Assembly (NCBI GenBank): GCA_026713825.1
Contig: JAPONS010000026.1
Span: forward strand, 1 to 64,000
Source: Chloroflexota bacterium
GTDB lineage: Bacteria > Chloroflexota > Dehalococcoidia > Lucifugimonadales > UBA1127
Direction of reading: 5' to 3'
Length of the DNA: 64,000 nt
Made by a program: the position numbers and the translations under genes. Positions 12,974-17,259 of this stretch are shown in pieces; the stretch's first letter is position 1, and each line of letters starts with the position of its first letter. A model generated the notes under the pieces. It was not told where the DNA came from. It made no database searches and saw only the letters and a list, made by a program, of their open reading frames with translations.

Positions 12974-13336
12974 GAGCGTCCCTCCGTCCCGGAGCGGCTG
13001 TACCCAATGATAGCACAGGGACCATCCCAGCTATGGGAATAGTGACGTTGACTGTTCGACATCAAAATTGTGACAAATATGTGAAAGGTGAGATGAAAGT
13101 TGGTTTCCGACCAAAGTCGCGGACAAAACATTTGGCGCTCTCTAGTGGCTTCCAGGTGTAACATTACCGAAGAAACGGTAGATTCCATAGCTAAAAATGT
13201 TTGGAAACCAACTTTTTAAGTCGTCTAATTTGAGTTTTAAACTTGTCTCAGATTAGGGGTTGACAAATTGTGTGACGGGCCGTTTAATAGCGCTGTAGCC
13301 CAGAGGTTGGGCATTTCTGTTTTAGAGTCGTTAACA
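12974..13336. promoter_or_regulatory. Divergent regulatory region between mog and rsmH, with 13-bp inverted repeat
   Basis: About 360 bases, strongly AT-rich compared with the rest. AAAGTTGGTTTCC at 13096-13108 is repeated in perfect inverted orientation as GGAAACCAACTTT at 13203-13215. Midway lies a small palindrome, TACCG-AAGAAA-CGGTA at 13165-13180. The paired distant sites look like regulator sites that could loop, upstream of the division cluster. No mraZ gene, the usual regulator here, is present. Confidence 0.5.
13260..13288 (+). promoter_or_regulatory. Strong sigma70-type promoter for rsmH
   Basis: TTGACA (consensus -35) at 13260-13265, a 17-base spacer, then TTTAAT (five of six) at 13283-13288. 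This is the best-matching promoter seen in the window. Transcription would begin near 13295, so the rsmH start must be downstream of that. Confidence 0.8.
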
Positions 13337-14239
13337 GTGACGCCTCAAAACGTTGGGCCCCAGCCGGTGCACACGCCGGTCCTTGTCAAGGAAGTGGTGG
13401 AAGCGTTGGCGGTGGCCTCAGCGGGCGCGATTATAGATTGTACGGTCGGCGAGGGCGGCCACACTGAGGCCATCCTCAACGCCGCACCGGACTGCGTTGT
13501 CATCGGCTTGGACCTGGACCCGGCGGCCCTGGCCATCGCGAAGGAGCGGTTGTCAGGCCACGGTGACCGCGTCCGTTTGGTCAACGCATCGTATACAACG
13601 CTGGCTGAGCAGGCGCGGTTCCTGGAAGAGATCTCTGTGATGGGCGTTCTCCTGGACCTGGGCCTCTCAAGTCTGCAGTTGGAGGGAGAGGAACGAGGGT
13701 TCAGTTTCCAGCGGAATGCTCCCCTCGACATGCGTTTCGGCCCAGACGATGACCTCACCGCCGATGACGTGGTCAACCGCTACACGGAGCGCGACCTCGC
13801 CTGGGTCATCCATGAGTACGGTGAGGAACCTCGGGCACGGCGGGTCGCCAGGGCCATCGTGCAGCGGCGCCCCATCCGGGGTACCGAGCACCTGGCTGAG
13901 GTCGTGCAGGGAGCATTGGGACGCCGGGGCCGTATCCATCCGGCCACCCGTACCTTCCAGGGCATCCGAATGGAGGTGAACCACGAGGTCGACGCGATCA
14001 AGACGGCCCTCGCGGCTGCGGCGGAGACGCTCCACCCCGGAGGCCGGCTGGTGGTCATCAGCTATCACTCGATCGAGGACAGGCTCGTCAAGACAACGCT
14101 AAGGGAGTCCACGGTGCTTAAGGCGCTGACCAAGAAGCCAATTACCCCCTCCGGAGAGGAGGTCGCGTTAAATGCGCGAAGTCGGTCCGCCCGCATGCGG
14201 ACGGCCGAGCGGTTGGATGAAGGCACCGCCTTCAGGTAG
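13337..14239 (+). CDS. rsmH: 16S rRNA (cytosine1402-N4)-methyltransferase
   Basis: Methylates N4 of C1402 in the ribosomal P site; also called MraW. From the GTG at 13337 it is 300 residues. An upstream in-frame start at 13268 would lie inside the promoter, and a TTG at 13307 is another option. Motifs: HTPVLVKEVVEAL at the N-terminus, DCTVGEGGHTEAIL for SAM binding, DLGLSSLQLE, and ISYHSIEDRLVK near the C-terminus. It heads the remnant of a dcw cluster. mraZ, ftsL, ftsI and the mur genes are all absent around it. Confidence 0.93.
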   Translation: MTPQNVGPQPVHTPVLVKEVVEALAVASAGAIIDCTVGEGGHTEAILNAAPDCVVIGLDLDPAALAIAKERLSGHGDRVRLVNASYTTLAEQARFLEEISVMGVLLDLGLSSLQLEGEERGFSFQRNAPLDMRFGPDDDLTADDVVNRYTERDLAWVIHEYGEEPRARRVARAIVQRRPIRGTEHLAEVVQGALGRRGRIHPATRTFQGIRMEVNHEVDAIKTALAAAAETLHPGGRLVVISYHSIEDRLVKTTLRESTVLKALTKKPITPSGEEVALNARSRSARMRTAERLDEGTAFR

Positions 14240-14488
14240 ATGCGAACCGGTTGTACAGGGGTGCCGGCCCCCTCCCTTCAGGCGCCCCTCTAAGTAGCCT
14301 GGCCACGCGGACGGCAAATGCCTGCCCATGTTCAAACCGTCCTCCCCTCGGCCGGTGCCCCTGTACCGCTGGTAAACCCGGGCCAGTCAACTGAAAGGAA
14401 TTGCTCAGCCGCCCGAATGGGGCAGGTCTGAGACTCAAGAGCCGCCGTACCCGCATCGCGCCGCGGAATACGGAGAAAGGGACGCGAT
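14240..14488 (+). promoter_or_regulatory. Structured leader between rsmH and ftsA, candidate cis-regulatory RNA
   Basis: GTACAGGGG-TG-CCGGCC at 14253-14269 pairs with GGCCGG-TG-CCCCTGTAC at 14350-14366; as RNA the two TG steps form G-U wobbles, giving an unbroken 17-pair helix. It encloses a hairpin, GGACGG 14309-14314 with CCGTCC 14337-14342. A second stem-loop is CTCAG 14404-14408 with CTGAG 14428-14432, with GCCC/GGGC inside. CCGTA 14445-14449 can pair with TACGG 14469-14473, overlapping the start of the ftsA ribosome site. GGGGTGCC in the first arm can instead pair with GGCGCCCC at 14281-14288. I do not recognise a known riboswitch. Confidence 0.5.
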
Positions 14489-15742
14489 ATGGCTAAGGAC
14501 GTCACGATTGCAGTTATAGACGCGGGCACATCTAAGGTACTCACCCTCATCGGTCGCCACAACGGCATGGACAGAGCCGAGGTCCTCGGAGCAGGACTCG
14601 CCCCCACTGCCGGCATCCGCAAAGGCGTCGTCGTCGACGCTGGTGCGGCCCGCGAGAGCATCCGCGAGTCCATGGAGGATGCGCGCATTGCCGCCGGCGT
14701 CCTCGCACCCTCCGCCTTCATAATCGTCTCCAGCGGTCACCTGGAGGCCCACTCCTGCTGGAGCACCCTCCATTCCATGGGACAGGACGCGGCCATCACC
14801 GAGGCCGAGCTTGATCGAGCCGTCGATGCTGCTCGCCCCGAGGGGCTCTCCTCCAGGCAAGAGGTCCTGCACAAGCTCCCGCGCTCCTTCGCCGTTGACG
14901 GCCTCAAGGGTTTGCGCAACCCCATCGGTATGCACGCCCTCCGTATCGACGTTGAGACCGTGTGCGTGACCGCAGAGGCCGCCTCCATCAACGCTCTCGT
15001 CAGCGCTGTCGAAAGCGCCCGCGTCCGCGTCGACGGCATAGTCGCCGGCCCCGTCGCCACGGCCGAGGGCGTCCTTTCGCCCGACGACATGGAGCGCGGC
15101 GTGGCCCTCATGGACATCGGCGGAGGCGTCACAACTGTGGCCGTCTTTCGCAACGGCGCCCTCTGGAACGCCGGCGTCCTGCCGCTGGGCGGCAACCAGT
15201 TCACCACGGACCTTTCGCTCGCCCTGAACATCGCACCCGAGACCGCCGAGGATCTGAAGGTCCGCTACGGCCAGGCCGCCCTCGACGTCACGGGCGACGA
15301 GTCCGTCGAGATCGAGTCCCCCGCCGACCAGCGCCTGGTTCGCGTCGAGCGGCGTGTCATCGCCCGTTACCTTCACGAGCGCGCCGGCGAGCTCTTCCGC
15401 TTCGCCGGCCGGAAGCTGAACGAGTTCGGCTTCCCAAACCTGCCCCCGGCCGGCCTCGTGTTGACCGGCGGAGGTTCCACCCTGCGCGGCATTGAACGCG
15501 TGGCGCGCCAACAGCTCGGCGCACCGGTGCGTTTCGCTTTCCCGGAGGACCCGGACCTGCCTTATGACCTGCGCGATCCCGCCTTCTCCGCCGGCGTCGG
15601 CGCCCTGCATTGGGCCTCCCGTCAGCCGGAGACATCCATGCGGGATGGCGGCAGAAGACAGAAATTTAACACCACCTACGCTCAGGCCAACGCCGGTCCC
15701 CTGAGCCGGCTCAAGGACCGCATGAGCAAGGTTGCCCAGTAG
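14489..15742 (+). CDS. ftsA: Cell division protein FtsA
   Basis: Actin-like ATPase that ties FtsZ filaments to the membrane. 417 residues. It opens with the phosphate-1 loop VIDAGTSKVLTLIG; the FtsA-specific 1C subdomain lies at about 85-160; phosphate-2 is LMDIGGGVTTVAVF near 210 and the adenosine motif is LTGGGSTLRGI near 330. The C-terminal amphipathic membrane-targeting helix is LSRLKDRMSK. GGAGAAAGGGA precedes the ATG. FtsZ follows 37 bases later in the same direction. Confidence 0.95.
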   Translation: MAKDVTIAVIDAGTSKVLTLIGRHNGMDRAEVLGAGLAPTAGIRKGVVVDAGAARESIRESMEDARIAAGVLAPSAFIIVSSGHLEAHSCWSTLHSMGQDAAITEAELDRAVDAARPEGLSSRQEVLHKLPRSFAVDGLKGLRNPIGMHALRIDVETVCVTAEAASINALVSAVESARVRVDGIVAGPVATAEGVLSPDDMERGVALMDIGGGVTTVAVFRNGALWNAGVLPLGGNQFTTDLSLALNIAPETAEDLKVRYGQAALDVTGDESVEIESPADQRLVRVERRVIARYLHERAGELFRFAGRKLNEFGFPNLPPAGLVLTGGGSTLRGIERVARQQLGAPVRFAFPEDPDLPYDLRDPAFSAGVGALHWASRQPETSMRDGGRRQKFNTTYAQANAGPLSRLKDRMSKVAQ

Positions 15743-16889: not shown

Positions 16890-17259
16890 CCTCCACCCCT
16901 CTCAAACGCCCGATTCATCGGGCCCCTCCCTCGCCACCGGGCCGCCCTGCCAACCAGGGCGGCCCGCTTACGTCAGCACAAGGGCGGCCCGCAGACGCCC
17001 CTGCCAACCAGGGCGGCCCGCTTACGTCTCCCCTTCCCCGAGGGCTCAAGGCACAGTGGCTCAACGACGTCAAGACCATCTTCTTGCCACCAACCCGCAC
17101 CCTTGCCGCCTAGCAGTCCACACCTTGCCGGGGTAACATTAGGGGAGAAGACCAGCGCGCCCGCCGATGCCCTCGGCATGCGCGCGGCACATTCGCCCAA
17201 GGGCCGGCCGCGCCGCCCCTCAACCCCGCTCGCGACGCCGGCTGCGTGAGGAGCGCTCT
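16890..17259. repeat. ftsZ-tkt intergenic region with duplicated GC-rich hairpin
   Basis: GGGCCGCCCTG 16939-16949 pairs perfectly with CAGGGCGGCCC 16955-16965 around CCAAC. The segment CTGCCAACCAGGGCGGCCCG plus CTTACGTC is present twice (around 16947-16974 and 17001-17028). The second copy has lost half the stem. No T-run follows, so rho-independent termination is uncertain. Nothing else recognisable up to the tkt start. Confidence 0.6.

Follow-up and report, generated by a model that had tools for sequence, protein, structure and literature searches.

Control of how much FtsA and FtsZ is made is central to cell division, and the controls known from other phyla act mostly through promoters and proteins. 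The mraW RNA motif is located upstream of mraW (rsmH). This motif (RF01746) is listed for Actinomycetales (PMC2864571). In the puf operon, the stability of mRNA segments is described as contributing to protein ratios (PMC6238624), and in Streptococcus pneumoniae the proposed binding targets of EloR and KhpA are 5′ untranslated regions, that of ftsA among them (PMC6403258). Here, the gap between rsmH and ftsA was analyzed in a 64-kb window (the whole stretch of DNA under study), taken from one contig of a draft genome of 2.64 Mb from the class Dehalococcoidia. The gap between the rsmH stop codon (14239) and the ftsA ATG (14489) occupies positions 14240-14488 (249 nucleotides, nt). It contains a real conserved structured RNA, whose long-range helix P1 has been kept by compensatory change within the genus. 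The parts of the element are as follows:

14246-14269, + strand: 5′ arm of the long-range helix P1; 8 of the 23 P1 pairs changed on both sides among five species.
14350-14373, + strand: 3′ arm of P1, pairing with 14246-14269.
14279-14301, + strand: hairpin P2, CAGGC..GCCTG, inside P1; 4 of its 5 pairs invariant in five species.
14297-14315, + strand: 19-nt stretch GCCTGGCCACGCGGACGGC, inside P1; identical in five species.
14309-14342, + strand: hairpin P3, GGACGG..CCGTCC, inside P1; from folding and the five-species alignment.

The initial annotation had described a 17-pair helix at 14253-14269/14350-14366, an enclosed hairpin and further stem-loops. The helix was exact, two of its pairs being G-U, and this core grows to the 23 pairs of P1 (14246-14269/14350-14373); hairpins P2 and P3 lie inside P1, and P4 and P5 after it. 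The gap was kept in four congeners, even though two of them have an FtsA that is down to 53-54% identity. In the five-sequence alignment, 95.9% of the cells of the 34 pairs of P1-P3 were paired, against 32.5-49.7% when the pairing was slid. Changes on both sides with pairing kept were observed at 8 pairs, all of them in P1 (3 of 500 shuffles reached 8), and the covariation score of P1-P3 was reached by none of 500 shuffles, with only five sequences compared. The comparison with relatives proposed at the outset thus came out in favor of P1. Since P2 and P3 hardly vary, covariation neither supports nor contradicts them. In G005, from another genus of the same family, a 23-pair P1 was retained and the inside was shortened to 20 nt. 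Between the window and G001, the inside was identical at 73 of 78 positions and P1 at 31 of 48; the corresponding values for G004 were 57 of 76 and 34 of 48.

R1, which models the element of the genus, was searched in 17 loci from other families and G005. Both G025, with an E of 6.5e-5, and G005, with an E of 2.6e-4, were matched at the correct position, and there was one unrelated weak match. Over 250 genomes of the order, confident matches were obtained only in the five congeners, the best of the others having an E of 0.0029, and no second copy of the element was found in the window's own genome. Folding of the single sequence gave a mixed answer in the proposed comparison with shuffles: the P1-P3 domain alone reached a z of -4.49 (0 of 200 shuffles as good), but the 249-nt gap was marginal, with a z of only -1.70 (12 of 200), and P4-P5 alone was weak (z -2.12; 9 of 200). 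P1 was the top unbroken helix of the 64-kb window, with a score reached in 2 of 20 shuffled windows. Therefore P1 is not provable from a single sequence, and it is the comparative evidence that proves it.

To cover the class, FtsA was searched in 197 relatives and found in 185, and 146 genomes of the order had rsmH just upstream of ftsA. A class-wide addition contributed 46 of 93 loci (the other 47 being without rsmH just upstream of ftsA), for a total of 192 gaps; two of 99 loci, L128 and L158, had no usable gap. The 133 gaps of at least 50 nt were each compared with 100 dinucleotide shuffles, and a helix was taken as supported when two or fewer shuffles were as good. Long helices at this position, differing in their letters, were observed within the order in families f1, f5, f7, f19, f20, f21, f25, f32 and f35, and in other parts of the class in f57, f59 and f85. 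P1 mostly comprises 15-34 pairs, small bulges allowed. The helix was supported in 28 of the 35 genomes called by hand as carrying the element (bearers) and in 11 of the 98 hand-called non-bearers, three of which became bearers, the remaining eight having other hairpins. The blind finds, new bearers by sequence, were G294 (f50), G276 (f68) and G283 (f75). For G300, none of 100 shuffles was as good. In total, the element was called in 39 genomes of 16 families, and the helix test supported 32 of the 39 and 15 of the 16 families; the f38 call was based on the motif described below alone. The called genomes that failed were G420 (4 of 100 shuffles as good), G046 (10), G400 (10), G258 (13), G410 (18), G370 (28) and G042 (83). 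As the hand calls were long helices sought in these very gaps, their shuffle counts are selected, and more independent support is provided by the three blind finds, the matches of R1 and R2, and the motif.

R2, a model of the f59 element, matched 12 f59 genomes among 393 of the class, as a single copy in each and always between rsmH and ftsA; six weaker matches in other genomes (E 0.004-0.1) were left uncounted. Over 400 genomes of the phylum only G267 was matched, so nothing outside the class was found with that model. In an FtsA tree of 42 genomes, from which f19, f7 and f38 were left out, the bearers fell in two clades of the order, and f13 and f12 stood among them but had no element. Because families outside the order also carry the element, this distribution is explained more simply by an old origin followed by losses. 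Separately, a short overlapping reading frame, with AEPPDT..LR at its end, seems to be present in the gap of family f28 (L085, L102, L084 and others) and may be an ftsL-like gene.

Inside P1, a short strand was shared between families. Its pattern, GT[CT][AG]A{1,2}[AG]CC[CT] (GUCRAACCC or GUCGAGCCC), was drawn up after most of the sequences had been seen. It occurred in 20 of 38 bearers, from 10 families; over 200 shuffling rounds the mean was 0.8 genomes and the maximum 4. Three of the 95 non-bearers also had it, among them G258 (f50), which has since been called a bearer despite its weak helix. Of the three blind finds, G283 was off by one letter and the other two matched the pattern. Families f1, f5, f20 and f21 have, instead of this motif, a C-rich strand, CCCCUC or a near variant, just 5′ of the P1 3′ arm, and the window carries GUUCAAACC besides its C-rich strand. 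Both strands were located in the window:

14330-14338, + strand: GTTCAAACC, likely counterpart of the GUCRAACCC/GUCGAGCCC motif; one mismatch to GGTCAAACC, matched by position and by eye.
14342-14349, + strand: C-rich strand CTCCCCTC, directly 5′ of the P1 3′ arm; families f1, f5, f20 and f21 have CCCCTC or a near variant.

The length of the inside ranged from about 15 to 140 nt, and it was nearly gone in f5, f20 and G005. The C-rich strand as an anti-Shine-Dalgarno sequence, and the motif as a tRNA-like T-loop or as mimicry of 16S rRNA, were inspected by eye, with nothing firm emerging.

The transcript to which the element belongs was considered from the following features:

13260-13288, + strand: promoter-like TTGACA-17-TTTAAT upstream of rsmH; kept in 5 of 5 congeners (window included), by consensus only.
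13337-14239, + strand: rsmH (16S rRNA methyltransferase), the upstream cistron; syntenic in relatives.
14489-15742, + strand: ftsA, the downstream cistron, with its ATG at 14489; ftsZ is next, its frame running to 16889.

In the alignment of the rsmH promoter, TTGACA was invariant, with a TATAAT-like -10 box at 17 nt; the promoter scanner had omitted 13260-13288 owing to its -10 rule, and the same scanner found no promoter in the rsmH-ftsA gap of the window. With the rsmH promoter kept and none found in the gap, 13260-13288 is the likely start of a single rsmH-ftsA-ftsZ transcript. For 31 of 33 genomes the start of P1 was no more than 50 nt past the stop codon of rsmH (median 26 nt), whereas its distance to ftsA ranged from 29 to 380 nt. 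The initial annotation had taken the region for a leader of ftsA. The gap is indeed structured, but P1 is tied more closely to the rsmH stop than to ftsA, so an ftsA leader is unproven and is one possibility only. Both f5 genomes have a promoter, TTGACA-17-TNNNAT, between the element and ftsA (the sole two matches in the 192 gaps), and G074 (L056) has an intrinsic terminator, GCGCAGC..GCTGCGCTTTTTT, right after the element and before ftsA; these would place the element on the rsmH side of a transcript boundary.

Additional hairpins and frames were observed around these genes. Directly 3′ of ftsZ, at 16890-17040, strong G+C-rich hairpins without a U-run, partly duplicated (GGGCGGCCCGCTTACGTC), probably mark the end of the rsmH-ftsA-ftsZ operon; the folding z of 16890-17130 was -3.15, and hairpins after ftsZ were also present in G002 (L045). 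Right after the rsmH promoter, at 13298-13322, there is a terminator-like hairpin (GCCCAGAGGTTGGGC) with a T-rich run behind it; it is kept in G002. In the f59 loci L227, L279 and L281, a terminator-like hairpin with a U-run lies straight after rsmH, 5′ of the element. An 18-nt inverted repeat with an 84-nt spacer and a T-run after it (13096-13113/13198-13215) was rejected as part of the system, being upstream of the promoter and absent from the congeners. A leader peptide, suggested by a 17-codon frame from an ATG right after the rsmH stop, was also discarded, as the frames were not kept in the congeners by eye.

From its sequence and position, the element probably sets separate expression of rsmH and of ftsA-ftsZ. 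The initial annotation had supposed that FtsA-FtsZ output could be controlled relative to rsmH, and a conserved structured RNA in that place permits it. The explanation that we favor, tentatively and at somewhat less than an even chance, is a cis-acting intercistronic RNA that would uncouple rsmH from ftsA-ftsZ, most likely via processing or 3′-end protection at P1. One transcript would run through rsmH-ftsA-ftsZ, and P1 would close over a variable inside presenting a short conserved strand (GUCRAACCC, GUCGAGCCC or CCCCUC). P1 would most likely be cut by a double-strand nuclease, for example RNase III, and/or would block 3′-5′ decay of the rsmH segment, whereby the ftsA-ftsZ mRNA would gain a 5′ end, a ribosome site and a lifetime of its own. 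Conservation of the inside strand calls for some binding factor, and this factor would confer regulation. A stem of roughly two helical turns is suitable for RNase III. A near-perfect duplex of about this length, with at least 15 pairs (bulges allowed), was found in 27 of the 28 supported hand-called bearers, G067 having 12, and an RNase III gene is present in the genome of the window. A long stable stem of this kind would suit processing or protection better than ligand switching.

Several observations weigh against this intercistronic processing. In families f41, f18, f34 and f14 the gap is often short and lacks the element, which is thus dispensable. In f59, P1 is conserved in sequence and its covariation was no better than that of shuffles (205 of 500). 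Moreover, a terminator-like hairpin with a U-run was seen by eye before the element in the f59 genomes G346, G400 and G420, and a weaker one in G318 and G450; this would place the element on the ftsA side or require read-through. Finally, a plain stability hairpin would need neither the invariant 19-nt inside of f1 nor a shared motif.

The foremost alternative, on balance unlikely, is that the element is a protein- or ligand-sensing leader of ftsA-ftsZ, in which the inside would bind a factor altering ftsA translation, P1 would act as a clamp and P4-P5 would keep the ribosome site open. The features downstream of P1 bear on it:

14404-14432, + strand: hairpin P4, downstream of P1; from folding.
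14445-14473, + strand: hairpin P5, abutting the ribosome site; compensatory changes between near congeners.
14474-14480, + strand: AGAAAGG, likely Shine-Dalgarno sequence judging by its letters; GAAAGG invariant in six family members.

P5 stops directly 5′ of AGAAAGG or its equivalent in all six family members, and G003, G004 and G005 have a hairpin with another sequence at the P5 position. This constancy, the f1 inside being more conserved than P1, and the motif in 20 of the 38 bearers against the 0.8 expected all fit a sensing leader. The proteins KhpA and KhpB are candidate binders: two matches to KH_KhpA-B over the cut-off were obtained in the window's own genome, the only one searched for them, corresponding to frames of 76 amino acids (KhpA-like) and 278 amino acids (KhpB-like), told apart by their length. 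They may bind the element, and are candidates only because both are encoded and because an action on the S. pneumoniae ftsA 5′ untranslated region has been proposed. By contrast, the f5 promoter and the G074 terminator intervene between the element and ftsA, and the inside varies widely in length and is nearly gone in some bearers. The initial annotation had placed a hairpin at the ribosome site; P5 abuts the Shine-Dalgarno sequence but does not cover it. No conserved hairpin pairs the ribosome site in the manner of an RNA thermometer or Shine-Dalgarno sequestration, and the GGG pairing there in the window fold was not conserved in the congeners. With this site uncovered and the alternative pairing described below at chance, no expression platform was found among those tested.

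A wider reading, which we consider distinctly improbable, is that the class shares an RNA family whose dedicated partner, a protein or a small molecule, would read the GUCRAACCC/GUCGAGCCC (or CCCCUC) strand in the clamped stem and that would set FtsA-FtsZ dosage against rsmH. If true, it would represent a link at the RNA level between ribosome maturation and cell division in the class.

It is more doubtful still that P1 closes a stable small RNA, cut from the rsmH-ftsA transcript and acting in trans. The long closing stem, the compact shape and the single copy per genome would agree with this, but the confident matches were all between rsmH and ftsA, and from family to family the inside varies too much to have a single trans target.

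There is very little to recommend a transcription attenuator with mutually exclusive pairings, the reading of the initial annotation. Two pairing partners can indeed be drawn for the segment GGGGTGCC, and G074 has its intrinsic terminator downstream. Nevertheless, the alternative pairing was at chance level: in the window, the pairing of the 5′ arm with the real inside was equaled by 45 of 200 shuffled insides, and among 15 genomes only G064 came near significance (11 of 200). In the genus, the alternative helix covaried no more than shuffles and was broken at 3 of 8 pairs in G001. The predicted energy of P1 was about -46 kcal/mol, compared with -26 for the alternative helix. No U-run terminator was found in the gap of the window, and among the bearers a clear intrinsic terminator downstream of P1 was found only in G074. 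The last reading, to which the 2 of 20 shuffled windows and the whole-gap folding had pointed, is that the pairing arose by chance in G+C-rich DNA or belongs to an inverted repeat that is mobile; it was judged refuted by the compensatory changes in P1 and the class-wide helix test, together with the same place in 16 families, the R1 matches at the right spot in G025 and G005, and the lack of a second copy in the genome.

Regarding novelty, no gathering-score match to Rfam 15 (including mraW, RF01746) was obtained for the gap of the window or for 25 further loci, mostly of bearers, in agreement with the initial view that no named RNA motif of this shape is known in this place, and the searches made of open-licence literature listed no title describing this element. 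The element is a new RNA family, with a mechanism that is only proposed. In a class known largely from uncultured genomes, it adds a family for RNA libraries, and, kept through sequence replacement at the rsmH-ftsA boundary, it offers a concrete candidate site of post-transcriptional control.

Compared with the described systems, the element resembles the mraW motif in being a candidate structured RNA linked to rsmH, but it lies downstream of this gene, and cmscan gave no match. In S. pneumoniae, control at the RNA level has likewise been proposed for ftsA, through its 5′ untranslated region and KhpA/EloR (KhpB), with no conserved structure in the part of that account considered here (PMC6403258). 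The small RNA UpsM of Rhodobacter also comes from the non-coding part of a division gene cluster and is processed; it is described as being processed by RNase E, and it is set beside the element by description only (PMC6238624). Finally, like the intercistronic hairpins of the Rhodobacter puf operon, the element, known here from sequence alone, would be a stem that separates two cistrons carried on a single transcript; it differs from them in its place between rsmH and ftsA and in consisting of one long-range stem with a conserved strand inside.
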